Assembly (NCBI GenBank): GCA_012728995.1
Contig: JAAYEB010000160.1
Location: 1 to 61,842, forward strand
DNA length: 61,842 nucleotides
Direction: 5' to 3'
Origin: Fibrobacter sp.
GTDB taxonomy: Bacteria > Fibrobacterota > Chitinivibrionia > Chitinivibrionales > Chitinispirillaceae
In this document: piece by piece, positions 5,307 through 22,335 of the stretch
Layout of the letters: each line of letters opens with the position of its first letter
How positions within the stretch are numbered: position 1 is the stretch's first letter
The notes under the pieces: generated by a model
What the model was told of the DNA's origin: nothing
The model's input: the letters and a program-made list of their open reading frames with translations, nothing else
Database searches by the model: none
Program-made: the position numbers and the translations under genes

Positions 5307-5316
5307 AATTCGCGTC

Positions 5317-5688: not shown

Positions 5689-5817
5689 GATAAAGGACTC
5701 CTGCTAAAATTGGAATAGAATAAAAATGAATTGCGGTACAAACAAAATTGAAACTCTTTTATTTTATTCATTGGATGGATAAAAGTGCATATTTTTAGTA
5801 AGGCCAAGGGGTGAAAA

Positions 5818-6117
5818 ATGGAAACACGAGATGAAATTCTTGAATTTTTAAGAGAGAATCGGGAGTTACTGAAAAACCACTTCTACATTACAAAGATTGG
5901 TCTTTTCGGCTCTTTTGCCCGTGGTGAGCAGACAGCCCAAAGCGATATTGATCTTATTATTGAACTCGATGCCCCCGATACTGATGTACACGTCCTGAAA
6001 AACAATATCCGTGAATTTTTTATTTCACGTTTCAACCGTGGAGTTAATCTCGCTCGGGAAAAATACCTACGACCGTATGCCCGCGATATGATACTTAAGG
6101 AGGCTATTTTTGTCTGA
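5818..6117 (+). CDS. mntA: MntA-like minimal nucleotidyltransferase (antitoxin), third acidic residue changed
   Basis: A 99-residue MNT-fold protein. The GSX10DXD signature is intact: Gly31-Ser32, Asp43 and Asp45 (GSFARG...DIDLIIEL). In this family MntA antitoxins transfer AMP to a tyrosine of the HEPN toxin HepT. The position where the third catalytic Asp normally stands (usually VDLV) reads VNLA, with Asn77. An AAGGGGTG box lies 5 nt before the ATG. The 3' end overlaps the next gene by 8 nt, as expected for a coupled toxin-antitoxin pair. The family assignment is firm. Whether it can still transfer nucleotides is doubtful from the missing acid and needs an alignment to confirm. Confidence 0.85.
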   Translation: METRDEILEFLRENRELLKNHFYITKIGLFGSFARGEQTAQSDIDLIIELDAPDTDVHVLKNNIREFFISRFNRGVNLAREKYLRPYARDMILKEAIFV

Positions 6118-6487
6118 AGAAAAGAACCACCTTTCCCTCATGAAAATTCTCGATGCCGCAGAAAGTTTTCTCGCACTCAGGTTAATTCTTGATGCCGCAA
6201 AAAAGATTTCTGATTTTTCCCGGCCATTCTCAAATGCGGATGATCTTTTCACCGATAAAAAGAGCTTTGATGCCGTCTGCATGAATTTTGTAGTTATCGG
6301 AGAGATGGTTGAACGGATTTCAGATAAGTTCAAACTGAAATACAGTACAATCGACTGGAAAAACATAAAAGGGCTTCGAAACATTATTGCACATGATTTT
6401 TTCGGGGTTGATGCAGAGGAAATCTGGAGTATTGTTAAACTGCATATTCCCGCATTGATTGAATCGATTCAGAAAATCACCAAATAG
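6110..6487 (+). CDS. hepT: HepT-like HEPN-domain ribonuclease toxin (DUF86)
   Basis: A 125-residue all-helical HEPN protein. The RX4H ribonuclease motif is present as Arg90-NIIA-His95. Canonical HepT has RX4HXY, where the Tyr is the residue modified by MntA; here the sequence runs HDF, so residue 97 is Phe. Translation probably starts at the TTG at 6110, since AAGGAGG lies 8 nt upstream inside mntA, which suggests translational coupling. The toxin active site looks intact while the modification acceptor is absent, matching the altered third acid in its partner. It faces the integrase gene, with an 18-bp gap between the two stop codons. Confidence 0.85.
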   Translation: MSEEKNHLSLMKILDAAESFLALRLILDAAKKISDFSRPFSNADDLFTDKKSFDAVCMNFVVIGEMVERISDKFKLKYSTIDWKNIKGLRNIIAHDFFGVDAEEIWSIVKLHIPALIESIQKITK

Positions 6488-6505
6488 TAATGTTACCTGT
6501 AGGTA

Positions 6506-7585
6506 CTACTGCGAAGCCTGCGAGCGTAGGGTATTTCTGTTTTGCGGCCAAACTACCGACTGAGCAGCTAAAAGCCCGTCGCGGTGGTAATACGTGCGGA
6601 GCATGTTACCGCTCTTCCAACCGGCTATCTGGCATAATGCCCGTTCCGGTGTTCCGGCATTGAGAAGCTCGGTTGCGGCATTGTGGCGGGTATCGTGGAA
6701 ATGTGCATCCTTTAAACCGGCAATCGTAAGACAGCGACGCATTGCCCGGTCAAAATCTCCGAGTGGCAGATACTTGTCATGTTTTTTCACGTACCTGAAA
6801 AAGAGCCACGGGCATTTTTCCACTGGCGGCAGAGTACGGAAATAGGTCGTGAGCCATCCCGGCGGAATTGGTTTCCAGCTTCCACTTTTACACTTTGCGA
6901 TTTCATCCGGGACATAGATAACATTATTGATAAGATCAAGATGTTCGCGGGTAAGTGCCGACAGTTCCGATTTCCGACAAGGTACTTCAAAAGCCAACCG
7001 GATAACTGCCGAAAGATGGGGTGCTTCCTGATCGACAATATTTATGAGCCGTTGCCGTTCAAGGTCGGTAAAAACTCTATCTCTGGGAATAACCTTGAGA
7101 ATTTCCATTTTCTGTAACGGATTAGATTCAAGCAGACCGTCGGTCACGCAGAGATTGAGTGCAGCTTTCGCCATTATGGTGTAATGATTAACGGTCGTAT
7201 TGGCAAGCGGTTTTCCTGTCTGGCGGGAAATCCGGTGTCTGAGATTAACCCAGTAACGCCGGAAATGTTCACGTATTTTTTCTATCGGAACATGGCTTAA
7301 ATCCCTTTTCATCTCGTCAAATGCATACGGTGCGGAAATGCTGTTTTTCCGTGCTTCGTAATAATAATCGAGCGCCTGACCGAACGTGACGATTTTTGTA
7401 GCTGAAAGATGAACACTTGCATCGGCGATTTCACGGAGACGCTGACGGAGTTCATAGTATTTTTCCTCTGCCGCCTTGCGGGTTCCCGTGAACGTATGGC
7501 GTTGACTATGCTCCCGGTTATCTTTCCATACCCGGATGAGCAGAACCCATTTACGCGGCCCGATCTGTGTAATATTCATTCCCAT
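6506..7585 (-). CDS. int: Tyrosine recombinase (integrase) of the tRNA-Arg element
   Basis: A 359-residue phage-type integrase. An N-terminal arm-binding-like region (WVLLIRVWKDNREHSQ) is followed by a SAM-like core-binding domain and a C-terminal catalytic domain. Catalytic residues are visible: Arg in VPCRKSELSAL, Lys in the DEIAKCKSG hairpin, the HDTRHNAAT box, Trp in AGWKSGNM and the Tyr in LRTYYHRDG. It lies ~1.5 kb inside the left attachment site and is the obvious candidate to catalyse integration into the tRNA-Arg anticodon-loop region. Base composition is richer in GC than the host genes outside the element. Confidence 0.92.
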   Translation of the reverse strand: MGMNITQIGPRKWVLLIRVWKDNREHSQRHTFTGTRKAAEEKYYELRQRLREIADASVHLSATKIVTFGQALDYYYEARKNSISAPYAFDEMKRDLSHVPIEKIREHFRRYWVNLRHRISRQTGKPLANTTVNHYTIMAKAALNLCVTDGLLESNPLQKMEILKVIPRDRVFTDLERQRLINIVDQEAPHLSAVIRLAFEVPCRKSELSALTREHLDLINNVIYVPDEIAKCKSGSWKPIPPGWLTTYFRTLPPVEKCPWLFFRYVKKHDKYLPLGDFDRAMRRCLTIAGLKDAHFHDTRHNAATELLNAGTPERALCQIAGWKSGNMLRTYYHRDGLLAAQSVVWPQNRNTLRSQASQ

Positions 7586-7673
7586 GCTGAAACCATCACT
7601 GTTCGAAATATTGACTATCGATAATTATAATATAGCATGGAAATAATCTAATGTAAAGATTTTCCATACGACA

Positions 7674-7895
7674 CTATCTGATCTTGACTGCTTTCCGGTT
7701 GATCTTCAGCACAGGTTGAAGTAATTTACCGTTCAGTAGATGACGGTCAATTTCATCCTTTGAAAACCTCCAACTTCCCCCGACCTTTACCGCTCCGGGT
7801 ATGCGGCCGGTATGACGGTATTTTTCAACGAACTTGATTGATATATTCATGTAGTCCGCAAGTTCTTTGCTGGTCAAAAATTCTTTTTCCATCAT
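7674..7895 (-). CDS. Excisionase-family helix-turn-helix protein
   Basis: A 73-residue protein with the winged-helix pattern of MerR-like excisionases (TIGR01764 type): LTSKELADYMNISIKFVEKYRHTG, then a wing with KVGGSWRFSKDEIDRHL. Such proteins bend DNA to direct the integrase toward excision, or act as small regulators. It lies directly upstream of the integrase on the same strand, with an 88-bp gap. GGGAG stands 5 nt before its first ATG; a second ATG follows immediately. The likely role is excision control of this element, inferred from position. Confidence 0.8.
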   Translation of the reverse strand: MMEKEFLTSKELADYMNISIKFVEKYRHTGRIPGAVKVGGSWRFSKDEIDRHLLNGKLLQPVLKINRKAVKIR

Positions 7896-7922
7896 GTTTC
7901 TCCCGTAATTGATTTCTTAACC

Positions 7923-8360
7923 TCAATTGGTTGATATTCCGGTTTTGGATTTCTCTAAATATTCGTCTATTCCACGTAATAGAATTCTATATGCCTCCTC
8001 TGGATCAGATGGCTTACCGTTTTCCACAAGGTACCTGTTGAGAAACAGAGCACGAAATTTTTGTTCTTTGGAAAACGATAACCAGACATAGACACAAACT
8101 GCTATTAACGGGTAGTATTCTGTACCAGTCAAACAGAATAGATATTTTAAATAAAGATTATTAACCTCTTCATGGCTTATTTGTTCAGGACGATCATAAT
8201 ATTGAAACAAATAGTTGAATACATGCAATGGGTTTATCGTTTGTTCAAATGCATCAACGATGATGTCGATTTCCAACTGATCAGCTTTTACTTCATGCAG
8301 TTTTTTGGTCACATCAGCAATATCCATGTGGTGTTCTCTGTATAGATATTCTTTATCCAT
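7923..8360 (-). CDS. Hypothetical element protein (145 aa)
   Basis: A 145-residue, mostly helical, soluble-looking protein starting MDKEYLYREHH. A GGAG box (AAAGGAG) lies 9 nt before the ATG, and it is placed between the primase-helicase and the excisionase genes on the same strand. One hydrophobic stretch (YPLIAVCVYVWLSF) could be a buried helix rather than a membrane segment. I do not recognise a family. Confidence 0.6.
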   Translation of the reverse strand: MDKEYLYREHHMDIADVTKKLHEVKADQLEIDIIVDAFEQTINPLHVFNYLFQYYDRPEQISHEEVNNLYLKYLFCLTGTEYYPLIAVCVYVWLSFSKEQKFRALFLNRYLVENGKPSDPEEAYRILLRGIDEYLEKSKTGISTN

Positions 8361-8601
8361 TAATAAATTCTCCTTTATGAAATGTAAAAAATCTGATTAG
8401 TATTTCAACCAATTTTAAAAACCTTGAACTAATCAATAGACGGTCCCTACGAGTTACCCGCTTGAAAACCCCTCTCAAAGTAACTAAAACAGCTTTGCAG
8501 GATTGCAGGAAGTGAAACCCTGTTTTGTGAAAAAGTCTTATAAACAATAGTTGTAAATACTTTCATTAAAACCGCCATTTGACATCCGCACATCCTGCAA
8601 G

Positions 8602-10956
8602 TTAATCGTTCTTTTCCGTTTTGGGTATCTTACATGATGTTTTCTCCGTTGATTTCTCCTTCTTCCTTAATTCAGGAATGTGGTAAACTGTTGTTCGTGT
8701 CCGATCCATTAACTTGGTTGCACCGGTAACCTTTTCGATGTGTGCCCATATTCTCCCGATTCTGACACCGATCTGTTTTGCCGATATCTTGTAGAAATAG
8801 CTTCCAATACCTTCTTTTTTTCTGATTAAATCAAGTAGTTCTGAAGCAGTACCTTTGAATCCTGTAGTATTATGAATATCGAGCAGTACCGAACCCAAGG
8901 AATCATTCTGAAGGCATACCATACCTTTATCAGCTTCGGCTGCTTTCAATGCCTTGATTGCTGCTTCCTCCTCACCTAATGCACGGCCGATCCGAACGGC
9001 GAAATCAGCGAAATCGGGGTGTCGTTTATTCAATCCTTGAGGAACTGGTTTATTATCTGCAAGTGCCTTTTTCAGGATAGTACAGAGCCAAGACATCACG
9101 CCATCGCGGTTATTCCGTATTTCCAGAGTCAAACTTGCATCGGCAGTATCGGAAACAAGCCGTTCCAATCTGATAACAAGTGCCCTGTCCGCTAAACCGG
9201 CATCTGAAGCAAACAATGGATTTGCAGATGTAAGTGTGATCCATGCATGTGGATAATAGGAGGCTATGGCATCATTGGGGTAAAGTTTACGTTTCTTATA
9301 TGGTGTTCCTGTAGATGCTACCGCGATGTTATCAGGCAGCCACTTGATATGGGAGTCAACATTGTCGACCAATGCAATTCCACCGAAATTCAGCACTACC
9401 CAGAAATCCTGTTCCCCTTCACGTTCTTTTGGACAGAGAGCGTTTTGGGACATGCCGAAAAGATGGAAAATATTCCTGATAATACAGGTTTTGCCGGAAC
9501 CGACAGGACCAATAATAACCAGTACCGGTTTGTGAAGTGGATTTGTCGGACAAGAAATAAACCATAATTTCAAGAGCATTCGGGCATGTGGGGATACAGT
9601 CGAAAGATTCTGGAATAATTGCAATCTATCAAAAGGATCGACAGGATCGGTAAACGTCCACTCATGTAAACAGGTGAACGGAGTGAATAAAATGCCATCG
9701 GTGCCGTTGTCAACTGTTTCAATTGTATCGGCGGAAATACGTACAATTTTATTAGGGCCACAGGAAAGGTATATTTTTCCGTCTTTCTTTGCCCAATAGA
9801 GGCTTACATTGATTTCCTTTGCCCTGTCGGATAAAGCTTCATTTTCAATATCCTTCAGTATAAATGAAAACAGTTTTGATGCCCGATTGACGCGAAGGGT
9901 ATCACTGAGCCATGAAAGGAAATTGTCGTTCTGAATCAGAAATAATACCTTCAAGGCCGAATTAAAAAACATTGCCGACGAAAAATCATTATCAGGTGTA
10001 TGATAAAAAGTGCCAATAGTCCGAAGCCATTCCCGTACCGCTTCTCCGCATTGCTGGTGGCGTTCATCAGGTGTCAGATTTTTGTTCTGAGTAATGGAAA
10101 AAAGGACAGCATGAATATTATCGTCAGAATTTACTACCTGATTTGAGATAGGTAGTTCTATCTTTACAACAAATAGATAACTTTGTAAAATATCCAGAGT
10201 ACCACTACCATGTTGAATGTAAAGGTCACGAACATCATACCCCGCTGGCTTACCGGCAGGCCATTTGATATGTTTAATTTCAAATGCTACATTGCGGAGC
10301 AGGCCAACAACCTTTTTAATACCGTTTCTGCCTGCTTCGTCATTGTCATACACTATGTAAATAGACTTGCCAGTAAAGTGTTTTGCCCAATCTTGTTTGA
10401 TTGTATTTGCACCCGGAACCGCGACTGTACACAATCCAAGTTCACGCATGGCGAGCATGTCCCAGATGCCTTCGCAAAGATAGACTTTATCGGCATTTAA
10501 TTTTTCAAGACCGTATAAATAAGTTGGAAAGCCCTTCAGGCAAAACGGTTTTGATAATTTGCCGTTTATTAGCTTGCAGGTGTAAACTGTATGGAGCTTG
10601 CCGTCCGGTTTATACGCCGGAATGATGTACTCACCAGTTTGAGGGTTATAACCGATTCCGGTACTCCGCAAGGTTTCGGGTTTTAGATGCCGATTACTTG
10701 CAAGCTGAATTTCAGGAGTGCCGAAGAAGCTTTTTTGGAAGGAAGGTAACAGCATTTCAATGAATGAAAGCTGATTGCCTTTTTTGCCACAGTGGTGACA
10801 TATCCACAATCCATTTGAATTGTTGATATAGAAATGGTCTTCTTTGCCGCAAAAAGGGCAATCAGTAATAGCTTGTGTACCATCACCGGAGAAATGATTC
10901 GGAGTAACATTAAATTTTTTAAAAAAAATTGAGATTCCATTATTGATATCATGCAT
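8602..10956 (-). CDS. Primase-helicase of the integrated element (CHC2 zinc finger, TOPRIM, P-loop ATPase)
   Basis: A 784-residue replication protein. Near residues 30-65 a zinc ribbon is visible (CPFCG ... CHHCGKKGN), as in DnaG-type primases. At ~155-215 is a TOPRIM domain with VYLCEGIWDML and the VYDNDEAG acidic pair. The C-terminal half has a P-loop (GPVGSGKTCI) and a probable Walker B strand (GGIALVDN). The last ~90 residues contain a winged-helix-like segment and a charged tail. This primase plus helicase layout is typical of phage satellites and P4-like or plasmid replication proteins. It is the main replication gene in the element and suggests replication after excision. The nearest origin-like sequence is the structured region at 12555-12892. 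Confidence 0.85.
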   Translation of the reverse strand: MHDINNGISIFFKKFNVTPNHFSGDGTQAITDCPFCGKEDHFYINNSNGLWICHHCGKKGNQLSFIEMLLPSFQKSFFGTPEIQLASNRHLKPETLRSTGIGYNPQTGEYIIPAYKPDGKLHTVYTCKLINGKLSKPFCLKGFPTYLYGLEKLNADKVYLCEGIWDMLAMRELGLCTVAVPGANTIKQDWAKHFTGKSIYIVYDNDEAGRNGIKKVVGLLRNVAFEIKHIKWPAGKPAGYDVRDLYIQHGSGTLDILQSYLFVVKIELPISNQVVNSDDNIHAVLFSITQNKNLTPDERHQQCGEAVREWLRTIGTFYHTPDNDFSSAMFFNSALKVLFLIQNDNFLSWLSDTLRVNRASKLFSFILKDIENEALSDRAKEINVSLYWAKKDGKIYLSCGPNKIVRISADTIETVDNGTDGILFTPFTCLHEWTFTDPVDPFDRLQLFQNLSTVSPHARMLLKLWFISCPTNPLHKPVLVIIGPVGSGKTCIIRNIFHLFGMSQNALCPKEREGEQDFWVVLNFGGIALVDNVDSHIKWLPDNIAVASTGTPYKKRKLYPNDAIASYYPHAWITLTSANPLFASDAGLADRALVIRLERLVSDTADASLTLEIRNNRDGVMSWLCTILKKALADNKPVPQGLNKRHPDFADFAVRIGRALGEEEAAIKALKAAEADKGMVCLQNDSLGSVLLDIHNTTGFKGTASELLDLIRKKEGIGSYFYKISAKQIGVRIGRIWAHIEKVTGATKLMDRTRTTVYHIPELRKKEKSTEKTSCKIPKTEKND

Positions 10957-11089
10957 ATTTTTTATTCCCCATAAATTGAAATAGCCAATACAATCGGTAG
11001 CTCACAATGTGAACTACAACAAAGATATTTGGTTGTACGGGGGAATGGATTTATGAAACTTTACGAAACTTTACGGCGAGAATAAAACT

Positions 11090-11854
11090 TTAATGGGGGC
11101 GCGAGATCCACAAAATCATCAGATCATCAATGTCGTTAAAGGCTTCTTTATCTGTTTGTGAAAGTTGTTTAGATTGTTGAATACATTTCCGCGCCAAAGG
11201 AAATAAAGTTACATAATGTAAACGAGGGGTATTTGTGTTTTGGTCTTCACAACATTCATGGAAAAATTTACCGAGAGGCTTTTGTGGATTGCTAATAATT
11301 GACGGATGTATCTCAAGTTTATCAGAAAGTTCTGTTGGGGTAACAGGTGGTGTATATTCGTCTGCCGAGAACTCAGAATAATAATTGTTGAAAATGGGAT
11401 CATTTAAAAAAAAGTCTACAACCTCTTCTGGGATGTCGAAGCTATACCGCGCTCCTCCTGCCATTTCTGCAAAAAGGTTTTCATATCTCTCTGGTTCCGA
11501 TTTGAATCGAATTCGAACTGGTAATGGTGGAAGGTCTGAGTTTTTAATATTTCTGAAAGGAGCAAACATCTTCTGTATAAGATTCTGGTTCTGACTAAAG
11601 AACTTGCCCCATAACAGCATTTTTATACTTGAGTCGGTTTCTTCGACTTTGTCAAATCGCATAAAATTGAGTAGCGCAATACAGGCATTTCTGAATATTT
11701 CTTTGTTTTTGGGTCGATTGCCTGAATTTTTAAGGAGTGGTTCAATTTTCTCCCAATCAGTTTTATACTCTGAATGATATTGATTAACGATTTTATCCCT
11801 TTGCAGATATTTCGCTTCTGCTTCTTTTATGTACTGCTCATTAGGATTTTTCAT
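11090..11854 (-). CDS. Hypothetical element protein (254 aa)
   Basis: I place the start at the ATG at 11852-11854 (MKNPNEQYIKEAEAKYL), not at the first ATG of the open frame at 11971. The longer form would overlap the upstream gene and run through that gene's terminator hairpin at 11887-11911. No strong ribosome site is seen for either start. The protein is soluble and charged, with a C-terminal helical region. No catalytic motif or known domain is recognised. It is more AT-rich than the integrase and restriction genes, which points to a mosaic origin of the element. Confidence 0.55.
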   Translation of the reverse strand: MKNPNEQYIKEAEAKYLQRDKIVNQYHSEYKTDWEKIEPLLKNSGNRPKNKEIFRNACIALLNFMRFDKVEETDSSIKMLLWGKFFSQNQNLIQKMFAPFRNIKNSDLPPLPVRIRFKSEPERYENLFAEMAGGARYSFDIPEEVVDFFLNDPIFNNYYSEFSADEYTPPVTPTELSDKLEIHPSIISNPQKPLGKFFHECCEDQNTNTPRLHYVTLFPLARKCIQQSKQLSQTDKEAFNDIDDLMILWISRPH

Positions 11855-11886
11855 AGAATACAACCACTGTTTTAATTGAATGATGT

Positions 11887-11911
11887 AAAAAAACCGGTAT
11901 GGTGTACCGGT
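11887..11911 (-). terminator. Rho-independent terminator after the 174-aa membrane protein gene
   Basis: Read on the minus strand: ACCGGTA, a 5-nt loop, TACCGGT, then a run of T. It lies ~35 bp after the stop codon at 11947. Confidence 0.8.
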
Positions 11912-11946
11912 CATTTTTATACCATCAATCAAAATAATTCCCGAAT

Positions 11947-12471
11947 CTACCGCATGCCCGGATGAATCCACAACTGACCTTCATTTTTAAGCAGATTCTC
12001 GTACATCTCGTAGGTGAAATTCGCCCAAACCACCTTTTGGGCCACCTTACGGTACAAAACCAGCTTCGCCGCCTGAGAAACGGTTTCCTGCCCGTAACTG
12101 TTGATAAAAACAGTATGCGGCCGAAGCATGCAACTCTGGATTTCGTTTAAAGCAGGGTCAGCATAGATTTCTTTCATGATATCCATCGCTTTTGACAGCA
12201 TTACAATTTTTCTATCATTTATGGTGTACTCAATATCCGCCCGATAGCCTCCCTGATCCACAAAAATTGAATCCAGTTTAACGCTTATACTATCGCCACC
12301 GGATTTTTTAACTATCTGGCTGATTTTTTCTTCCCGTGTTACAGGAGCAGAAGCGGTCTTTTCAGGTTCTGGAGATAATGAAACAATCAGGATTATCAGG
12401 GCGACAAAAGCGGCACTTGAAATGAGCAGATAACGGGCGAATTTCTGGAATTTTGTTTTTGGTGCTGACAT
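11947..12471 (-). CDS. Single-pass membrane-anchored hypothetical protein (174 aa)
   Basis: The start is taken at ATG 12471 because GGAGG lies 6 nt upstream; the open frame continues 24 codons further without support. The protein begins MSAPKTKFQKFARYL, then has one membrane helix (~16-34, LLISSAAFVALIILIVSL), a short linker rich in Pro/Thr/Ala, and a ~125-residue domain that would be outside the membrane. No family is recognised. It is followed by its own terminator and preceded by the structured non-coding stretch at 12555-12668. It may be an element-encoded envelope or exclusion protein, but nothing in the sequence proves this. Confidence 0.65.
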   Translation of the reverse strand: MSAPKTKFQKFARYLLISSAAFVALIILIVSLSPEPEKTASAPVTREEKISQIVKKSGGDSISVKLDSIFVDQGGYRADIEYTINDRKIVMLSKAMDIMKEIYADPALNEIQSCMLRPHTVFINSYGQETVSQAAKLVLYRKVAQKVVWANFTYEMYENLLKNEGQLWIHPGMR

Positions 12472-12892
12472 TGAGACCTCCATTATAATGAAATGTGAAC
12501 TTATCCTGAAAACAGCACCTTTCCCCAAATAAAAAGGCGTCACTTCACGACATCCCGAACCGAGGTACTGGCATACCTGACTTCCAAGACGAAGGAAGGA
12601 CGCCCATATATGGAGCGCCCTGTCCTCCTGTTTCGGAAGTCTTGAAAAGTGCCAGTTTTCGGTTTCGGAACAAGGAGAAAAGACTGTTATGTTATTACTA
12701 TTTTAAATTACAAAATTATTGTTAGTGACCTCCCGAAATTCAAATCAGTTAAAAAGTTATAAAAAAAATCATACGATAAAAAATACAATAAAGCACAATT
12801 TGATAAAAATGGATTATTTGTTTGATTAAAGACTTTAGTAACAAGCGCAAAAAAAAACAAAAAACCGGTGGGGGCTGGAATAATATCAAGAA
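12472..12892. other. Non-coding stretch with long hairpin and AT-rich block (candidate origin or RNA)
   Basis: No open frame of note is found. The left part holds the long imperfect hairpin at 12555-12668. The right part (12690-12880) is very AT-rich, with several A runs. A structured arm next to an AT-rich block inside an element with its own primase-helicase is what one expects of a replication origin, though a transcribed RNA is equally possible. Confidence 0.45.
12555..12668. ncRNA. Rod-like ~114-nt hairpin (structured RNA or origin arm)
   Basis: Nested complementary blocks are visible by hand: 12555-12563 with 12659-12668 (one bulge), ACTGGCA at 12567-12573 with TGCCAGT at 12650-12656, GACTTCC at 12579-12585 with GGAAGTC at 12635-12641, and AGG/AGGAC at 12593-12601 with GTCCTCCT at 12622-12629. 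At the tip is a CCATATATGG palindrome. Four successive helices in register are unlikely by chance. Strand and function are unknown: it could be an RNA, a leader of the downstream minus-strand gene, or a DNA hairpin used in replication. Confidence 0.55.
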
Positions 12893-13021
12893 TTACTTCT
12901 TGACTTTAGCCCAGAAACGAAAACATTTCCCGCGCTTCGGGTAAATGATTCGTCCTTTTCGCCGAATATATTTGGCAAAAACCAAAACATATCCGGGCTT
13001 GAACGATTTCTCGTTTCCCAT
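12893..13021 (-). CDS. Small highly basic protein (42 aa)
   Basis: A 42-codon frame starting MGNEKSFKPGYVLVFAKY and ending in WAKVKK. It has an almost ideal ribosome site, AGGAGGTGAG, a few bases before the ATG, which is the main reason to accept it. The protein has about 14 Lys/Arg and few acidic residues, so nucleic-acid binding is plausible but not shown. A longer open frame in another register over the same bases has no such ribosome site. A strong hairpin (13070-13101) sits in its expected 5' leader. No family is recognised. Confidence 0.65.
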   Translation of the reverse strand: MGNEKSFKPGYVLVFAKYIRRKGRIIYPKRGKCFRFWAKVKK

Positions 13022-13355
13022 GTTTCTCACCTCCTTTCATCAATTTATGTACCTTCACCACCGCCCTCACCTGAGTGCATCTTGTTGTAAATGCACTCAG
13101 GAAGGGGGGCGAGAGTAGCCAAAAAAGATGAAAGGTAGAGAAACAAAGCGGCACCTACCTTCCCACCGGTATTTCAAGATAATCCATACTGAATTGCCTT
13201 GAAATTTTCAATTCAAATCATTTTATGTCTATGTCTTCAACCTCCATCCAATATCCTGCGAGCATTCCGCATAAACCGAACCAGAACGCATGTTTTGGAG
13301 ATACCATTGTACCGAAACCAGTTCCAATCAATCCGAATGAAACCATGGATTTTAT
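13022..13355. other. Leader and intergenic region upstream of the 42-aa gene
   Basis: It contains the ribosome site and the hairpin of the 42-residue gene. The part from 13155 to 13355 shows only short frames without ribosome sites; nothing else is seen. Confidence 0.4.
13070..13101 (-). promoter_or_regulatory. Perfect 11-bp hairpin in the leader of the 42-aa gene
   Basis: CCTGAGTGCAT and ATGCACTCAGG are exact inverted repeats around a 10-nt loop. The outer CGCCC and GGGCG can extend the stem to about 13062-13111 with an internal loop. There is no T run, so it is not a simple terminator. It lies ~50 nt upstream of the start codon and could act as a protein- or RNA-controlled leader, or as a DNA-binding site. 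Confidence 0.55.
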
Positions 13356-13649
13356 TCAATATTGTTCCATTTCTGTTTTTGAATATGGTGCCCTTCTTAA
13401 ACCGTGTTTTCTTCTGATTGTACGTGTTGATTCGGTACCCTTTTCCAGATTACAGGAAATACATGCCGGAAAAAGGTTGTTTAAATGATCTGTACCTCCA
13501 AGAGCTTTCGGGTGTGAGTGTTCAATGTGCCATGCCCCCCGAGTGCCATGTTTTCCATATTTCGAGAAAGCGAGTGATTTTCTACAAAGGTGGCACCTGC
13601 CTGCGGTTTTATCGAAAACCGAATTAAGAACCTCATTTTTGAAACTCAT
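13356..13649 (-). CDS. HNH endonuclease
   Basis: A 97-residue HNH nuclease using the start at 13649, which has GAGG 6 nt upstream; the longer open frame would run into the upstream gene. Zinc ligands are Cys19/Cys22 (CHLC) and Cys63/Cys66 (CISC). The beta-beta-alpha core is WHIEHSHPKALGG ... HLNNLFPACISCN, with His44 in the HNH His position. It starts 10 bp after the PD-(D/E)XK-like gene, so the two are probably co-transcribed. Small HNH proteins act in restriction, homing or, next to terminases, in phage packaging; no terminase is present here. Confidence 0.85.
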   Translation of the reverse strand: MSFKNEVLNSVFDKTAGRCHLCRKSLAFSKYGKHGTRGAWHIEHSHPKALGGTDHLNNLFPACISCNLEKGTESTRTIRRKHGLRRAPYSKTEMEQY

Positions 13650-13659
13650 GCATACCTCT

Positions 13660-14046
13660 TTATCCAACCGTCCAGACTGTTGCAGGTAATCCCTCTTGCT
13701 GAAGTAATAATTCAGCATCTGTCTTGGCAGACGCTTGCACAACCAGTACAAAGAATTTGCCATGTTCTTTGGCGTTTGCGGTAAAAAGCAGACGCTGACT
13801 TTTTGAATGCTCACTTGTTAATGTTGAAACTGTCTCAACCTCGAATAAATAGGTCATTCTATTTTTTTGTGCAACGACATCTGGTATATGACCATTTCCT
13901 GTGTTCTGCCAATAAATCAATTCAGGATGATTGTATCCAACGATATCAGCTTGGATACCAACAAACCCGTTCCCGTCAAGATACGAAACAAGCTCTCGAA
14001 CCATATAATCGTGGTCAAGTTCGGTTATTGTATTCCAGTAATTCAA
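13660..14046 (-). CDS. PD-(D/E)XK nuclease-like protein
   Basis: A 128-residue protein with the arrangement of a restriction-nuclease fold: Asp56 in HIPDVVAQ, then the strand LFEVET with Glu69 and Glu71, followed by a helix (HSKSQRLLFTANA) and a strand (KFFVLVV). The usual Lys of the motif is replaced by Glu (E-V-E), a variation known in the superfamily. It is the middle gene of a compact minus-strand trio (DUF2188, this gene, HNH). The fold call is from motif reading; activity and target are unknown. Confidence 0.6.
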   Translation of the reverse strand: MNYWNTITELDHDYMVRELVSYLDGNGFVGIQADIVGYNHPELIYWQNTGNGHIPDVVAQKNRMTYLFEVETVSTLTSEHSKSQRLLFTANAKEHGKFFVLVVQASAKTDAELLLQQEGLPATVWTVG

Positions 14047-14064
14047 GATAAAATCCTTTCGTTA

Positions 14065-14295
14065 TTAATGTACCCGGTCTCTCGGTGGGCAAGGATCATT
14101 TCCATAAGAATCCCGGTCACGTATCTGCCCATGCCGATTGTGAATGAATAATTCCTTCTGTTGGTTCCGGGCTATTTCCCGTCCAGCTTCAATTGCTTCC
14201 GCCTGTGTTGAATGAAGTGAAGTGAAGCGTTCAGCTCCGGCACCTTTTACTCCCCATTCTTTTCCGTGTGGCACTACATGTTGATTCCTGCTCAT
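14065..14295 (-). CDS. DUF2188 family protein
   Basis: A 76-residue protein matching the DUF2188 pattern closely: MSRNQHVVPHGKEWGVKG at the N-terminus, STQAEAIEAGREIARNQ in the middle and GQIRDRDSYGNDPCPPRD at the end. GGAGG lies ~8 nt before the ATG. The function of DUF2188 is not established; such proteins are frequent near phage and stress genes. It is the first gene of the minus-strand trio and is divergent from the Xre regulator gene, so both may be controlled from the shared 14296-14462 region. Confidence 0.8.
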   Translation of the reverse strand: MSRNQHVVPHGKEWGVKGAGAERFTSLHSTQAEAIEAGREIARNQQKELFIHNRHGQIRDRDSYGNDPCPPRDRVH

Positions 14296-14386
14296 TGCAA
14301 GGCCTCCATTAGTTGTGGTTTTAAGATATTTTTGTTCATGGTATGAAAATATTCTGTGAGAGCATTAATGTCAAACAAAATATTAT

Positions 14387-14417
14387 GTTGTTACTAATAA
14401 CGGTTGTTAGAAATAAC
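14387..14417. promoter_or_regulatory. Two tandem 15-bp operator-like repeats
   Basis: GTTGTTACTAATAAC (14387-14401) and GTTGTTAGAAATAAC (14403-14417) are separated by one base and identical at 13 of 15 positions. Each has near-dyad GTT...AAC ends. They lie between the divergent DUF2188 and Xre genes, ~45 bp before the Xre start, where an autoregulating repressor would bind. The Xre protein as ligand is inferred from position. Confidence 0.55.
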
Positions 14418-14462
14418 ATTTTCAATTGATTGTCTCCGGGTTTCATTCTATTTTCATGGTAT

Positions 14463-14825
14463 ATGCCTCGAAAAAGAATAGACCGGATTTATTCCCAGAT
14501 CGGTTCCCGCATTCGGGATATCCGTAAGACCAAGGGGCTTTCGCAGGAAGACCTTGCCAAAGCAGTATCTCTTGAACGTCCCTCAATGGTGCTGATAGAA
14601 AGCGGTCGTCAGAAACTTCCGATAGACCGTCTTTATGCAATTGCCCGTGCTCTTGATGTACAGCCAAAAGAACTGCTTCCTTCGCTTGCGGATATCTTCG
14701 GGGAAAATGGCGAAGCTCCGGTATTCGTTCATGGTGGCGCAGTAATGGAAGAAAGCGCCATCTATGAAATAAGGGAAATTGTAGAGAAAAAGAAGAAACT
14801 GCAGAAACGAAAGGCTAAACAATGA
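14463..14825 (+). CDS. Xre-family helix-turn-helix regulator
   Basis: A 120-residue protein when started at ATG 14463 (MPRKRIDRIYSQIGSRIRD); the open frame extends 11 codons upstream only from a TTG. The Cro/C1-type HTH is visible at ~12-66: RIRDIRKTKGLSQEDLAKAVSLERPSMVLIESGRQKLP. The C-terminal part is a charged helix (EIVEKKKKLQKRKAKQ). Its stop overlaps the start of the ImmA-like peptidase gene (ATGA), the standard arrangement of a repressor with its cleaving peptidase. The tandem repeats upstream are its likely operator. It probably controls the element or the following restriction operon. Confidence 0.88.
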   Translation: MPRKRIDRIYSQIGSRIRDIRKTKGLSQEDLAKAVSLERPSMVLIESGRQKLPIDRLYAIARALDVQPKELLPSLADIFGENGEAPVFVHGGAVMEESAIYEIREIVEKKKKLQKRKAKQ

Positions 14826-15343
14826 GAAAAGGCACTGTCGAAAGAAGGGCTCAGATTCTCATCCGCAACCTTGGAATTGATGACTGGCCTGTAAATGTTG
14901 AAGGTATTGCCGATAAATTGAATGCCGATGTCGCAGAAGCGGATTTGCCGGATGATACGTCCGGTGTTCTTGAGAAAGTGCACAATGGCAGAAGCATGAT
15001 TGTTGTAAACAAGCGACACGCAAAGGTACGGCAGCGATTTACTATTGCACATGAATTGGGACACCTTCTTTTTTCCGACCGTTCCGGGCTTTATGTCGAT
15101 AAAAAGATATTCTTCCGGAATGGCCACTCGCAGGATGCTACCGATGAAGCTGAGATCACCGCAAATACTTTTGCCGCAGAATTGCTTATGCCGACGCCGT
15201 TTGTAAAAAAGGCACTCCAGAAATACATGTGCACCGGTGGTCTTGATTCAAGCGAAGACATCATCGGTGAACTGGCAAAAGACTTCAACGTCAGTTCAAT
15301 TGCCATGAGTATAAAACTTCAGAACCTCGGGCTTTCCTTTTGA
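14822..15343 (+). CDS. ImmA/IrrE family metallopeptidase
   Basis: A 173-residue protein with the zinc protease motif HELGH at 77-81 (FTIAHELGHLLFSDRSG) and a downstream helix with AEITANTFAAELLMP, which supplies the third ligand in this family. ImmA-type peptidases cleave the paired Xre repressor after a DNA damage or other signal and so switch on element genes. Its 4-nt overlap with the Xre gene supports such a pair. It is followed after 13 bp by the methyltransferase gene, so the restriction operon may belong to the same transcript. Confidence 0.88.
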   Translation: MRKGTVERRAQILIRNLGIDDWPVNVEGIADKLNADVAEADLPDDTSGVLEKVHNGRSMIVVNKRHAKVRQRFTIAHELGHLLFSDRSGLYVDKKIFFRNGHSQDATDEAEITANTFAAELLMPTPFVKKALQKYMCTGGLDSSEDIIGELAKDFNVSSIAMSIKLQNLGLSF

Positions 15344-15356
15344 TCCGGATTTCGGC

Positions 15357-18281
15357 ATGATGAATAAACGTAAAATTCTCGAATGTCTTACAAGAACCGT
15401 TCTGCTTGAAACGGCACAGGCGTTCGATGTTTCCGGACTATCCGGCAAAAAACGTGACGATATCATAAGCGAACTGATGCGGATTCGCTCTATCCCGGCA
15501 GAAGCGATTCTTGATTCCCTGCCACTTTCTCATCTGAAAGATATATGCAGGGAATACGATATCAAACCGCAGTCATGGCGTAAGAGCGATATAATAAACG
15601 CCATTGCAGGAAATGCTGCAAGCCCGGCTCCTGAAACCAGAACCCGCCCCGAAAAACAAAAATCAAGCAAACCTGTAATTACCGACATGAAAACGATAAA
15701 AGAGAAGGTGCGTATGCCCAGAGATAACGGCAGCAAGAAAACCATCGAACAATACACCCACAACGAGCAGGAGCGCCTGAATAATCCGCCCGTAGGGCTG
15801 GTAACCCCTGATACCGATAAAGACGGTGCAAAAAAGCAGTACCAGTACGACCCGCACCTCGATCCGCAACTGGTCTGGGCAGGAAAAGCAGAACATACCA
15901 GTTTTGAGGTGCCTACTGTGAGTCTGCATGTACATGAACGGATCGACCCCAAGCGGATCATCGAGCAGGTACGTAAAGAAGAAAAACCGGGTGCAGAACA
16001 GATGTCGCTGTTTGCCGAGCAGGAAAAACGGCCGTTACGTGAAGCCGTGGAATTTTACAAACACAAGGACGGATGGACAAACCGGCTGATTGCCGGAGAC
16101 TCGCTGCTGGTGATGAATTCACTGCTTGAAAAAGAGGGCATGGGGGAGAAAGTGCAGATGGTGTACTTCGACCCGCCGTATGGAATCAAGTATGGGAGCA
16201 ATTTTCAGCCGTTTGTGAATAAGAGGGATGTGAAGGATGGTAAGGATGAGGATTTGAGTAGTGAGCCGGAGATGATAAAAGCATTCAGGGATACTTGGGA
16301 ACTTGGATTACATTCTTATTTGACATATTTAAGAGATAGAATATCTATCGCAAAGGGATTGTTGAACGAAAAAGGTTGCATTTTTGTGCAAATCAGTGAT
16401 GAAAATGTGCACCATGTACGCGAAATTTTAGATGAAATATTTGGTAGTTCAAACTACTGTGGAGAAATCATTTTTAAAAAGACAAGTGGATCATCATCTA
16501 CCCTCGTAGGAACAATTAATGATTTTTTACTTTGGTATGCCAAAGATAAATCATGTATAAAATTCCATACTATTTTCAAAGAAAAATTACTCGGCGGAGA
16601 AGGAACATTAGAATACAAAAATGTTGAATTGCCCGATGGAACAATACGTAGAATCACTGAAGAAGAAATTTTAAATCCGCAAAAACTTCCAAACGGTGCA
16701 AGAATTTTTGTCGCTGATCCTGTTGTAAGTGAAGGTGGTGGTAAACCAGAAGAAAGAACTCTCATCTTTAGTGATGGTAAAAATCAATATAAAATTGATT
16801 GCGGACCAAAACGGCATTGGAAAACAACCGTATCAGGTATGAATAGATTATGGGAAGTGGGTCGGTTATTAAAACGTGAATCGCTTCGCATATACAAACG
16901 ATATTTTGAAGATTTCCCTTATATTCCCTACAATTCTATGTGGGATGATACTCGCGGTGAAACTGATATGGAATATGTTGTTCAAACATCTCGAAAAGTA
17001 ATTGAACGTTGCCTCTTAATGTGCACCGATCCTGGAGACCTCGTACTTGACATTACATGCGGTTCAGGTACGACTGCATTTATTTCAGAACAATGGGGAA
17101 GACGCTGGATTACCTGCGACACATCTCGTGTTGCCATTACGCTTGCAAAACAGCGCCTAATGACCGCCAGTTTTGACTTTTATGAACTGTCACAGCCAAG
17201 AGAGGGTATTGCATCAGGCTTCAAGTATAAAACTGTTTCGCATATTACGCTCAAGTCAATAGCCAACAATGAACCACCACCGCAAGAAGTCCTTTATGAC
17301 CAACCCTTAATCGACACCAAGCGTAAACGCATCACCGGCCCCTTCACCGTCGAAGCCGTCCCCGCCCCGACCGTCAAATCATTCGAAGAAATCGAAACCT
17401 CCGACATCGGTATTTCCGACGCATCAGTTACCCGTTCAGGTGAAACGCTCCGTCAGTCCGAATGGCGGCAGGAGTTGCTTAAAACCGGCGTTCGTGGTAA
17501 AAATGGGCAATATATCAAATTCAGCCGTATCGAACCAATGAGCGGTACACTTTACCTTCAAGCCGAAGGTGAAACCACATGGTGCGATGCAGGAGCAAAC
17601 AGCGTTGCCGAACCACCGGCACACTGGAAACCGCAAAAGGTGCTTATCTGCTTTGGCCCGGAACATGCCCCGCTCGAACAGCGAATGGTTGAAAACGCAT
17701 GGCAGGAAGCCCGCGCATTCCGCCCCGATCTGCTCCTGTTCTGCGCATTCCAGTTTGACGAGGAAGCGGCAAAGGATATCGATGAATTACCGGCAAGCGC
17801 GACCGGCATGCAACTGCTCAAGGTGCAGATGAACGCCGATCTTCTTACGGATGATCTGCGCAAGAAACGCTCAAGCAACGAAAGCTTCTGGCTTATCGGG
17901 CAGCCAGAAGTTGAACTGAAAGAGATTAAAAAAGGCGAGCATAAAGGCAAGTATCAGGTAGACGTGCTCGGTTTCGACTACTACAACCCCAAAACCGGAA
18001 ATGTCGAATCGGGCGGAAAACACCAGATCGCCATGTGGATGCTTGACACTAATTACGACGGGCGAAGCCTGTTTCCTTCACAGGTATTTTTCCCGATGGC
18101 CGGTGCCAGCGAAGGTTGGGCGACACTTGCCCGTAACCTCAAGGCCGAAATCGATGAAGAGAAAATCGAGGCATTCCGCGGCACGGAATCAATTCCCTTT
18201 GAACCGGGAAACCGCAAATGTGTAGCCGTAAAGATTGTCGATGACCGGGGAATCGAGAGTTTGAAAATTATCAGGCTTTGA
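15357..18281 (+). CDS. Type III-like site-specific DNA methyltransferase (Mod) with SAP-like N-terminal extension
   Basis: A 974-residue methyltransferase. Residues ~8-85 form two helical repeats resembling SAP DNA-binding modules (LLETAQAFDVSGLSGKKRDD; LSHLKDICREYDIK), an extension to the usual Mod layout. DPPY is at 272-275 (VYFDPPYGIKYG). The AdoMet-binding motif is near 563-573 (LDITCGSGTTAF), so the order is catalytic motif first, as in beta-class/type III Mod proteins. The ~300-residue span between the two motifs is the likely target recognition domain and is clearly more AT-rich than both ends of the gene. The C-terminal ~250 residues are an extra domain of unknown role. It probably methylates adenine in a short asymmetric site together with Res. 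Confidence 0.85.
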   Translation: MMNKRKILECLTRTVLLETAQAFDVSGLSGKKRDDIISELMRIRSIPAEAILDSLPLSHLKDICREYDIKPQSWRKSDIINAIAGNAASPAPETRTRPEKQKSSKPVITDMKTIKEKVRMPRDNGSKKTIEQYTHNEQERLNNPPVGLVTPDTDKDGAKKQYQYDPHLDPQLVWAGKAEHTSFEVPTVSLHVHERIDPKRIIEQVRKEEKPGAEQMSLFAEQEKRPLREAVEFYKHKDGWTNRLIAGDSLLVMNSLLEKEGMGEKVQMVYFDPPYGIKYGSNFQPFVNKRDVKDGKDEDLSSEPEMIKAFRDTWELGLHSYLTYLRDRISIAKGLLNEKGCIFVQISDENVHHVREILDEIFGSSNYCGEIIFKKTSGSSSTLVGTINDFLLWYAKDKSCIKFHTIFKEKLLGGEGTLEYKNVELPDGTIRRITEEEILNPQKLPNGARIFVADPVVSEGGGKPEERTLIFSDGKNQYKIDCGPKRHWKTTVSGMNRLWEVGRLLKRESLRIYKRYFEDFPYIPYNSMWDDTRGETDMEYVVQTSRKVIERCLLMCTDPGDLVLDITCGSGTTAFISEQWGRRWITCDTSRVAITLAKQRLMTASFDFYELSQPREGIASGFKYKTVSHITLKSIANNEPPPQEVLYDQPLIDTKRKRITGPFTVEAVPAPTVKSFEEIETSDIGISDASVTRSGETLRQSEWRQELLKTGVRGKNGQYIKFSRIEPMSGTLYLQAEGETTWCDAGANSVAEPPAHWKPQKVLICFGPEHAPLEQRMVENAWQEARAFRPDLLLFCAFQFDEEAAKDIDELPASATGMQLLKVQMNADLLTDDLRKKRSSNESFWLIGQPEVELKEIKKGEHKGKYQVDVLGFDYYNPKTGNVESGGKHQIAMWMLDTNYDGRSLFPSQVFFPMAGASEGWATLARNLKAEIDEEKIEAFRGTESIPFEPGNRKCVAVKIVDDRGIESLKIIRL

Positions 18282-18482
18282 AATAGATAATTGTGGCGAA
18301 TCTGCCATAATATAATAAACTCATTTGGTTGGGTTTGTAAATGGTACTTCTCCAGAATGAAATTTCGTAGTATTACAGCTATAAAATGAACTGGAGAATT
18401 GGTGCTGCCAGACTGAAATGTAAACCATGCCAAATAGATACCACTTAACGAAAATTGAATACTGATAATTGAAAGAATACCT

Positions 18483-19310
18483 ATGGCAAAAATGGACGTT
18501 AAAGGGCACGAAATTACCGTGGTCGCCATGCAGGACGAAGATTACATTTCCCTTACCGATATGGCCCGGCATAAGAATCAGGAAAGTACGGGAATCGTGA
18601 TAACGCACTGGATGAGTACACGGTACACGATTGAGTTCATGGGAGTATGGGAGCGGCTGAATAACCCCGGTTTTAATGTTACGGAATTCAGTAACATTAG
18701 AAATGAGAGCGGGAGCAATGGCTTTGTATTGTCATCCAGAAACTGGATAGAAAAAACCAATGCAATTGGTATCGTGGCAAAAACCGGCCGTTATGGCGGC
18801 ACGTATGCCCACAAGGACATTGCCTTTGAATTCGCTTCATGGATTTCGGTAGAATTCAAGCTGTATCTCATCAAGGAATTTCAACGGCTCAAGGAAGAGG
18901 AGCAGAAACAGCTCGGCTGGGACATCAAGCGCAATCTCGCCAAGATTAACTACAGGATACATACCGATGCCATAAAAGAAAATCTCATCCCGCCTGAACT
19001 GACAAAGGCCCAGATAAATCTTGTGTACGCAACCGAAGCGGATGTACTCAATATGGCGCTATTCGGCATGACTGCGAAGCAGTGGCGGGATGCCAACCCC
19101 GGCCAGAAGGGAAACATCCGCGATTATGCGGACGTAAATCAACTGGTCTGCCTGTCCAATATGGAGAATCTGAACGCCCTTTTTATCAATGAAGGTGTTT
19201 CACAACCGGAACGTCTTGCAAAACTGAACAAAATAGCGATACAGCAGATGCGGTTGCTTACCGAGAAACCGCTGCAACCCCTGCTCGAACAGAAAAACAG
19301 GAAACGGTAA
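18483..19310 (+). CDS. KilA-N domain protein between mod and res
   Basis: A 275-residue protein with an N-terminal KilA-N domain: YISLTDMARHKN, HWMSTRYTIEFMGVWERLNNPGFN, then a characteristic GRYGGTYAHKDIAFEFASWIS at ~105-125. KilA-N is a DNA-binding fold of phages and mobile elements. The C-terminal half is helical and contains IRDYADVNQLVCLSNMENLNALFI. Its stop overlaps the first base of the res start codon, which indicates coupled translation and a joint function. It could be an accessory DNA-recognition or control subunit of the restriction complex; this role is inferred from gene order only. The 200 bp before it hold no gene and could carry a separate promoter. Confidence 0.85.
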   Translation: MAKMDVKGHEITVVAMQDEDYISLTDMARHKNQESTGIVITHWMSTRYTIEFMGVWERLNNPGFNVTEFSNIRNESGSNGFVLSSRNWIEKTNAIGIVAKTGRYGGTYAHKDIAFEFASWISVEFKLYLIKEFQRLKEEEQKQLGWDIKRNLAKINYRIHTDAIKENLIPPELTKAQINLVYATEADVLNMALFGMTAKQWRDANPGQKGNIRDYADVNQLVCLSNMENLNALFINEGVSQPERLAKLNKIAIQQMRLLTEKPLQPLLEQKNRKR

Positions 19311-22114
19311 TGCCGCAAACAACCATAGACAAACTGATAATCAATTCGCCGTATGAAGAACCGTCACGTCACTGGTCGTATGACCGGGAGAACCGGGTTT
19401 TCAATCTGGCAGATGGCCGCCGTGAAGCGGGATATGTGATTGCTTCCCCGCAATCAAAAGCATTCGATGATCCCGGCCTTTTTGTTCCCATAGAACTTGC
19501 AAATAAGATACGGCCACGGGTTAAACAGTGGCGCGAGAGCGGGTATCCGGGCATTACCGGAATTACCAAGCGGCTGCTTGAACACTGGAAGGATCCGGAA
19601 GAACGCAAGGAACGCAGGTTTTTCTTTTGCCAGCTTGAAGCGATAGAAACACTCATCTGGCTGACCGAAGCGCCGGATGCCGAAAAAGTCGGCGTTGACA
19701 TTCCCGGTGATGGCGGAGAATTTGTACGGTGGTGCAGCAAGATGGCGACCGGTTCCGGAAAAACGATCGTCATGGCAATGGTTATCGCATGGCAGATACT
19801 CAACAAGGCTGCAAGTCCGCAAGACAAGCGGTTTTCAAAAAATATTCTTATAGTGGCTCCCGGACTTACGGTAAAAAGCCGGCTTTCAGTTCTCAACCCC
19901 AACAGTGAAGGCAATTACTTTGAAGTTTTCAATATTATTCCGCATGCCCTGTTTGACCGGCTGCGGCAGGGAAAGGTGCTGATCCACAACTGGCATACGC
20001 TGTCATGGGAAACCGACGAGAAAATTGCAAAAAGAAAATCGGTTGACAAGCGTGGCGCAAAGAGTGATGAAGCTTATGTTCGCGAAGTCCTTGGCGATAT
20101 GGCTGATGCCCGGAACATTCTTGTCATTAATGACGAGGCACACCATGCATGGCGCCTTGCGGCCATGAGCAAAACAAAGGGACTCAAGAAAGAGCAGGAA
20201 GAGGCGACCGTATGGGTTGGCGGCCTCGACCGTATTAATCGGGCGAGGGGTATTCTTCGTTGTCTCGATTTTTCGGCGACACCATTTGCGCCATCCGGTA
20301 AACAGAGTCAGGAAGAGGCACTGTTTCCATGGATTATCTCGGATTTCGGCCTCAATGATGCCATAGAAGCAGGGTTGGTCAAAACTCCCCGTGTCGTCGT
20401 TCGCGATGACAGCATTGTCACAAAGGATATCAAGTCCCGTCTCTACCATATTTACATGGACAACGATGTGAAGGACGATATTAATCGTAAAGCAGAAGAG
20501 TCGGAACCGCTGCCGGACTTGATGATAAATGCCTATTACCTCCTTGGAAAAGACTGGCTGGAAACGCGCAATGCATGGCAAGAGGCCGGGTTTCCCATTC
20601 CGCCGGTCATGATAACCGTTGCCAACAGGACGGAAACATCCTCCCGTATCAAATATGCTTTCGACCACGGAGAAATCCAGATACCGGAACTGTGTGACCC
20701 TTCGAAAACACTTCAGATAGACAGCAAGGTTCTTGACGAAGCTGAATCGCAGGAAGAGGCTGAAGAAATAGTAGCCACTACCGACACGAATGAAGATAAC
20801 ACGGACGACGATGAGCCGAAAGAGAAAAAACTTTCCAAAAAGGAACAGGCTGAATTGCTTCGCCGTACGGTAAATACGGTAGGCAAGGCAGGGCTGCCCG
20901 GAGAACAGATTCAGAATGTGATTTCAGTAGGTATGCTATCGGAAGGGTGGGATGCTCAGAATGTGACCCATATCATGGGTTTGCGGGCATTCTCAAGCCA
21001 GCTACTTTGTGAGCAGGTTGTAGGTCGCGGACTGCGCCGTACATCGTACGATGTGGGCGAAGACGGGTTGTTCGAAGCGGAATATGTGAATATCTTCGGC
21101 GTTCCCTTTACCTTTCTTCCACACGAAGGAGGAGAAGGAACACCACCACCGCCGCCGCAACCTAAAACAAAGATTGAACCGGTACATGAAAAAGCGCATC
21201 ACGAGATAACATTTCCGAACATTATTCGGATTGACCACGTTTTCCGTCCGGTACTTTCGGTTGACATGGCTCGGGTCAAACCACTTGAACTTGATCCGTA
21301 TGAAAGTATTACCGAAGCACAGATGGCCGATGTCATCGAAGGAAAGCCGATGGTATCTCCGGCAACCATGAGCGAAATTGATCTGAAGGAACTGGAAGAA
21401 AAAAACAGGCTTCAGACGATAATCTTCAGGGTTGCACAAAAGATTTACAACAATGAAAATCCGAACTGGAAAGGTCGCCCTGAAGTTTTTCTGATTCAGC
21501 TTATACGCATTGTAGAAGATTACATAAAATCAAACCGGATCATCATCAAAACCGATCTTTTTAATCAGGATGAGCGCCGGAAGAAGATTCTTATCCTGTT
21601 GAACATGAATAAGGTCGTGCAAAATATCTGGAACGCAATCAGGACGGAAAATACCGAAAAACTGATGCCGGTGTTCGATGATATTACACCGGTTCGTTCA
21701 ACGAAAGACGTTCAGACATGGCACACAAGCAAACCCTGTGAATGCAGTAAAAAATCTCATGTGAATTTTACGGTGTATGACAGCACATGGGAAGCGTCCG
21801 AAGCATATATTCTCGATAAATGCGATGCCGTGGAATCATGGGTTAAAAATGACCATCTCGGGTTTGTGATTTACTACCATTATAAAGGTGTCGTGCATAA
21901 ATATTTCCCCGATTTTATCATTCGTATGAGATCGGGAAAACACCTTGTCCTCGAAACCAAGGGGCAGGATGATGACCGGAACCGTGCAAAGCGGGCATAT
22001 CTTGCCGAATGGGTAAAAGCGGTCAATGAACAGGGCGGTTTCGGCAAGTGGGACAGTGCCGTTTCGTTTTACCCCGGCGATCTGGAAGAAATATTGAGCA
22101 ACTGCACGCCGTAG
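19310..22114 (+). CDS. Type III-like restriction enzyme Res subunit (DEAD/DEAH helicase-nuclease)
   Basis: A 934-residue protein. Walker A is at ~146-152 (ATGSGKT, Lys151), the DEAH box at 275-278 (INDEAHHAW), followed by the helicase motifs FSATPF and SEGWDAQNV ... QVVGRGLRR. A C-terminal nuclease is visible as Asp868 (YFPDF) and Glu882-x-Lys884 (LETKG). This gives the ATP-driven motor and PD-(D/E)XK cleavage expected for type III Res. The N-terminal opening IDKLIINSPYEEP... fits the BPTD_3080-type restriction family. It is the last gene of the element, and its stop lies in the motif-rich right end. Confidence 0.9.
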   Translation: MPQTTIDKLIINSPYEEPSRHWSYDRENRVFNLADGRREAGYVIASPQSKAFDDPGLFVPIELANKIRPRVKQWRESGYPGITGITKRLLEHWKDPEERKERRFFFCQLEAIETLIWLTEAPDAEKVGVDIPGDGGEFVRWCSKMATGSGKTIVMAMVIAWQILNKAASPQDKRFSKNILIVAPGLTVKSRLSVLNPNSEGNYFEVFNIIPHALFDRLRQGKVLIHNWHTLSWETDEKIAKRKSVDKRGAKSDEAYVREVLGDMADARNILVINDEAHHAWRLAAMSKTKGLKKEQEEATVWVGGLDRINRARGILRCLDFSATPFAPSGKQSQEEALFPWIISDFGLNDAIEAGLVKTPRVVVRDDSIVTKDIKSRLYHIYMDNDVKDDINRKAEESEPLPDLMINAYYLLGKDWLETRNAWQEAGFPIPPVMITVANRTETSSRIKYAFDHGEIQIPELCDPSKTLQIDSKVLDEAESQEEAEEIVATTDTNEDNTDDDEPKEKKLSKKEQAELLRRTVNTVGKAGLPGEQIQNVISVGMLSEGWDAQNVTHIMGLRAFSSQLLCEQVVGRGLRRTSYDVGEDGLFEAEYVNIFGVPFTFLPHEGGEGTPPPPPQPKTKIEPVHEKAHHEITFPNIIRIDHVFRPVLSVDMARVKPLELDPYESITEAQMADVIEGKPMVSPATMSEIDLKELEEKNRLQTIIFRVAQKIYNNENPNWKGRPEVFLIQLIRIVEDYIKSNRIIIKTDLFNQDERRKKILILLNMNKVVQNIWNAIRTENTEKLMPVFDDITPVRSTKDVQTWHTSKPCECSKKSHVNFTVYDSTWEASEAYILDKCDAVESWVKNDHLGFVIYYHYKGVVHKYFPDFIIRMRSGKHLVLETKGQDDDRNRAKRAYLAEWVKAVNEQGGFGKWDSAVSFYPGDLEEILSNCTP

Positions 22115-22325: not shown

Positions 22326-22335
22326 AAAAAACAAA

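Follow-up and report, generated by a model that had tools for sequence, protein, structure and literature searches.

A structured RNA is encoded on the minus strand of the 61,842-nt window analysed here, one contig (JAAYEB010000160.1) of a 5.0-Mb Fibrobacter sp. genome. It belongs to a large family spread over Bacteroidota, Fibrobacterota and relatives, in which the RNA lies ahead of accessory genes, among them DNA-modification defence systems, cargo of mobile elements and genes for surface proteins. At the window locus it is probably (about 0.6) a cis-acting 5′ leader of the gene behind it, P0001, and would control transcription downstream by conditional termination, in the manner of a riboswitch or attenuator. 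This reading rests on four features: the position on the same strand as the gene that follows, an elaborate conserved fold, a U-run and a pair of competing pairings.

The first-pass annotation had described a nested hairpin rod at this place, leaving the strand unspecified. Folding of 171 nt around the hairpin gave −61.5 kcal/mol on the plus strand (z −5.0 against shuffles) and −70.6 kcal/mol on the minus strand (z −6.9), where none of 200 shuffles folded equally well, so the rod is real and well past chance. It is significant on both strands and strongest on the minus strand (12551–12673). The sense strand also folds better in 91 of 95 homologues, G–U pairs outnumber A–C mismatches in the same set by 116 to 31, and the downstream gene lies on the minus strand; for these reasons the minus strand is the functional one.

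Read on that strand, the core of the RNA (12551–12673; 98.6 bits with the covariance model) is enclosed by the closing helix P1, formed from 12660–12673 and 12551–12562. Within it lie two mini-hairpins with complementary six-base loops: A, GAAAACUGGCACUUUUC (12644–12660), with the loop CUGGCA, and B, AGGUAUGCCAGUACCUC (12562–12578), with the loop UGCCAG. Between these are a variable arm P2 (GACUUCC, 12635–12641, with GGAAGUC, 12579–12585) and an apical hairpin whose 5′ strand X is GGGCGCUCC (12612–12620) and whose 3′ strand Y is GGGCGUCCUUC (12595–12605). Beyond the core comes a tail, GAAGUGACGCC (12536–12546), which is complementary to Y (−17.4 kcal/mol), so that Y could pair either with X or with the tail, and then a U-run (12531–12535), the putative termination point.

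Homologues of the rod were found in several phyla. A blastn search within the window's own family gave two further copies, in one genome, with the same rod and different adjoining genes. A first covariance model built from these three Fibrobacterota copies matched in 33 of 168 Fibrobacterota genomes (E ≤ 0.01); the best carriers had 7 and 4 among the matches listed, some of which are the opposite strand of one site. An exact pattern for the two mini-hairpins, worth about 44 bits and expected to match about 0.02 times by chance in a collection of 257 billion bases, was found in at least 117 contigs, chiefly of Bacteroidota and also of Fibrobacter, Ignavibacteria and Lentisphaerae; nine viral contigs were matched. 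Nearly all of the pattern loci that were searched also scored with the first model, over parts of the RNA outside the pattern.

By a second model, Bacteroides xylanisolvens XB1A has 12 copies, B. timonensis 15 and a Lentisphaerae genome 14. The same model matched in 33 of 195 genomes from the phylum of the last and, at E ≤ 1e-4, in 38 of 296 Bacteroidota genomes, a lower bound in view of the strict filters; none of 198 other Bacillota genomes gave a match, a clean negative control. By blastn the window hairpin had no match in plasmids, and a Bacteroides copy of the RNA had none among phage records. Two loci with 20-nt matches (L004 and L005) were discarded, as the phylum search gave no covariance-model match in either genome.

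The fold is maintained by overwhelming compensatory change in homologues, the lack of which the first-pass annotation had named as a sign against its idea; of its three options, that of an unknown structured RNA turned out to be right. Pairing was scored over 95 non-redundant copies, with partners taken from other copies as the shuffled control. In P1, 94% of cells pair, a share that falls to 52% with shuffled partners (z 25.6). For the stem of mini-hairpin A the corresponding values are 98% and 89%, for that of B 96% and 86%, and for the complementarity of the two loops 569 of 570 cells and 90% (z 17). When the copies were aligned to the first model, 91.2% of paired cells held a pair (63.8% shuffled), both sides changed in 40 of the 48 model pairs, and covariation scored 0.614, compared with 0.173 for shuffled and at most 0.089 for slid controls. 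Such an alignment is biased in favour of the structure, and relatedness among copies makes shuffle tests too favourable, yet the effect stays far above the slid controls. In P2 (helix 4) every pair varies on both sides. An alternative drawing would pair the complementary loops as a helix inside the rod, but the flanks of each loop keep their own complementarity, which favours two mini-hairpins with kissing loops. The design common to the family is a closing helix, the two mini-hairpins, a variable arm, an apical hairpin, a tail whose sequence complements the apical 3′ strand, and a U-run.

Both ends of the RNA carry further conserved signals. The first-pass annotation had also pointed to AT-rich DNA beside the hairpin, and 12691–12905 is indeed 74% A+T, against 57% for the element, a value matched by fewer than 1% of 215-bp windows. 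This flank fits a promoter region: a promoter-like −7 box, TAATTTTG (12711–12718, minus strand), lies 58 nt before mini-hairpin A, and homologues have a box of the same type there. It is of the TAnnTTTG type, a known Bacteroidota promoter element corresponding to the sigma-A consensus (PMC9723704), and transcription is predicted to start around 12705. TAnnTTTG occurs upstream in 37 of the 95 copies, against 5.2 expected, mostly 55–60 nt before hairpin A (the main cluster) or 76–82 nt before it. Some Fibrobacter copies (e.g. L066, L069 and L072) and Flavobacteriia copies have, about 30–60 nt upstream of the RNA, an inverted repeat of variable sequence that seems to keep its pairing and is perhaps an extra 5′ hairpin.

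At the 3′ end, a run of four or more T starts 24–35 nt past hairpin B in most of the 95 copies. The duplex of the tail with the apical 3′ strand comes to −17.0 kcal/mol with a copy's own tail, −12.6 kcal/mol with the tails of other copies and −9.2 kcal/mol with shuffled tails. A seven-base stretch complementary (at least 6 of 7) to both the tail and the apical 5′ strand is present in 86 of 92 copies; this count is weak alone, since foreign tails, many of which pair well owing to sequence conservation, reach 64–76 of 92. The apical strand has kept both of its possible pairings, with the U-run at its expected place, and termination is predicted from this arrangement. Among copies with unrelated genes, similarity typically extends 20–50 nt beyond the core on the upstream side and about 25 nt on the downstream side (median 24–26 nt at ≥80% identity), so that promoter, RNA and tail act as one module.

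The genes next to the RNA were classified by the nearest ORF of at least 100 aa, which could be done for 110 distinct copies. In 101 of these the nearest downstream ORF shares the strand of the RNA, as a leader RNA would have it, whereas upstream ORFs divide about evenly between the strands (54 to 49). The downstream ORF starts a median of 78 nt past the core, and most copies lie some 60–170 nt ahead of the gene. Genes tested behind Fibrobacter copies include matches to several families of type I methyltransferase (HsdM), to methyltransferases of types III and IIG and to a DrmD-like helicase; the other Fibrobacter genes tested gave no methyltransferase- or DrmD-type match. Bacteroidota copies lead RibD_C-type reductases in loci resembling conjugative elements, and also TonB receptors, response regulators, sigma-70, LytTR, thioredoxin-like and caspase/Sel1 proteins. 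On two Bacteroidales plasmids the RNA follows a primase gene and leads a gene of the dihydrofolate reductase family.

Some loci have additional features. In L054, L056, L064, L066 and other Fibrobacter loci, the methyltransferase-type genes led by the RNA have another small hairpin, AAGGGCU..AGCCCUU, next to or overlapping their start codon, which possibly serves translational control. One locus (L104) has tandem copies at 4275–4403 and 6009–6140, each before a Sel1-repeat-like gene, the first of which also has a caspase domain. In B. xylanisolvens XB1A, several of the 12 copies (L236–L247) stand beside relaxase/mobilisation-, serine recombinase-, integrase- or replication-like ORFs and so seem to lie in mobile elements, as judged by eye.

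Under the leader reading, the TAnnTTTG-type promoter a short way upstream would start transcription, with the RNA folding as it emerges from the polymerase. If the tail displaced the 5′ apical strand and paired with the 3′ apical strand, the resulting duplex at the U-run would stop RNA polymerase. Were some signal, such as a small molecule or a protein, to stabilise the kissing-loop fold, the apical hairpin would hold and the polymerase would read through into the gene. Several points count against this scheme. The stop state would be a pseudoknot, as pairing of the tail with the apical strand crosses P1 and P2, and such a predicted stop differs from an ordinary terminator stem. No single metabolite suits so varied a set of genes. 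Finally, in part of the Flavobacteriia copies (those before TonB receptors and thioredoxin-like genes) the gene starts 200–500 nt downstream, which leaves room for a second promoter.

The main rival is a stand-alone, trans-acting small RNA of about 190 nt with its own promoter and terminator, the neighbouring gene being incidental or a target. The promoter-like box and the 3′ U-run do bound a discrete unit, similarity between copies with unrelated genes stops near the U-run, and multicopy small RNAs exist in Bacteroides, where FopS and GibS (PMC11697453) likewise form a multicopy paralogous family; the RNA described here reaches 15 copies per genome. A free-standing transcript would not, however, be expected to show a same-strand bias downstream only, nor a start codon at so short a median distance, and no unpaired conserved seed is apparent, the most conserved bases lying in the loop–loop pairs. 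This explanation is considered unlikely, if clearly the best of the alternatives. Identity with FopS itself was rejected on its published description: FopS consists of a single-stranded 5′ stretch plus a terminator hairpin, and its authors state that Rfam includes it (PMC11697453), whereas the RNA here is a large kissing-loop fold that matches no Rfam model and lacks the combination of a single-stranded 5′ seed with one terminator hairpin. MRSC-65-2 was rejected as a known name for the RNA, also on its published description.

The modular edges, the patchy, multicopy distribution and the integrase-, relaxase- and serine-recombinase-like ORFs seen by eye beside several Bacteroides copies would also suit an element that acts as DNA, either a MITE- or REP-like mobile repeat or a single-strand recombination site that spreads before genes. 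Against this stand the strand-specific wobble asymmetry, the fixed orientation to the downstream gene, the fixed places of promoter box and U-run and the outer ends, which vary freely, unlike attC core sites or terminal inverted repeats; such an element is improbable. An integron attC in particular was rejected, as the invariant outer core-site bases are missing and the bases of the closing helix run through all pair types.

The first-pass annotation had further offered an origin recognised by the primase-helicase, or a transfer or packaging site; a role as origin or single-strand initiation site, or in transfer or packaging, is very improbable, for although the window element and the two Bacteroidales plasmids have a primase-helicase gene near the RNA, the gene order differs between them, the copies occur at many kinds of locus (Fibrobacter methyltransferase operons and TonB receptor loci among them), mostly before unrelated same-strand genes, the structure is conserved as the RNA of one strand, and neither iteron-like repeats around the RNA nor a constant association with replication genes over the copies was found.

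The RNA family is apparently undescribed and unnamed. At the gathering threshold Rfam 15 gave no family at the element in the window or at 35 homologous loci, a permissive Rfam search of the window and one Bacteroides copy gave chance-level matches only, and conserved strings of the RNA had no match in literature text. With riboswitches and attenuators it shares the location 5′ of a same-strand gene, a complex conserved fold and, before a U-run, a tail that could capture a strand of the upstream fold; it differs from them in its pseudoknotted alternative pairing, its mixed accessory genes, the lack of a match to an Rfam class and a ligand that is only postulated. Parts of the family may be contained in HMP2_4078, HMP2_4205 and HMP2_1032, unnamed palindromic candidates from a microbiome-wide screen by Fremin and Bhatt in 2021 (PMC8040213), with which the RNA was compared by description only. 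These are palindromes of 106–132 bp from Bacteroidetes, near integrase/D5, tetratricopeptide-repeat or TonB genes, and no function or family was proposed for them there.

A broader proposal, put forward tentatively and at somewhat short of even odds, is that the family represents a new class of RNA switch, possibly a kissing-loop-gated pseudoknotted terminator, which in Bacteroidota, Fibrobacterota, Ignavibacteria and the Lentisphaerae group would keep acquired genes, including restriction-modification genes, silent until a common cellular signal is present. If so, major gut, rumen and environmental bacteria would have in it a general regulator of the genes they acquire. Its interest lies in the up to 15 copies per Bacteroides genome, the lack of an Rfam family and the position ahead of many defence and mobile-element genes, and the question of whether a common signal sensed by RNA licenses defence and cargo genes is made testable.

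At the window locus the RNA leads P0001 (11947–12471, minus strand), which encodes a membrane-anchored-looking protein of 174 aa and has its ATG at 12471 behind a Shine–Dalgarno sequence, GGAGGT, at 12476–12481. The protein has no Pfam or PHROG match. Within the phylum it has a single full homologue, in G057, which holds the closest relative of the window locus; there too the gene follows a copy of the RNA, so that RNA and P0001 have been kept together; in that copy P1 and P2 are altered on both sides with pairing kept. In protein searches P0001 had no relatives in viral contigs and the primase-helicase none in genome contigs. Contrary to what had been supposed, the non-coding stretch does not directly adjoin the primase-helicase gene, since P0001 and a second ORF intervene. 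A terminator-like hairpin follows P0001 (11892–11912, minus strand), which suggests that RNA and P0001 form a transcription unit of their own and weakens the idea of the RNA as head of a whole replication/excision operon.

The host element is likely an integrated island, 4906–22382, flanked by partial copies of the 3′ end of a tRNA-Arg gene (4906–4958 and 22330–22382). Its genes include an integrase, an excisionase, a primase-like gene, an HTH regulator, an ImmA-like peptidase, a DNA methylase, a KilA-N protein and a ResIII helicase. The DNA methylase, KilA-N and ResIII helicase set looks like a defence cassette and is without an RNA copy of its own. Outside the island, a very long ORF of 2214 aa occupies 23430–30074.
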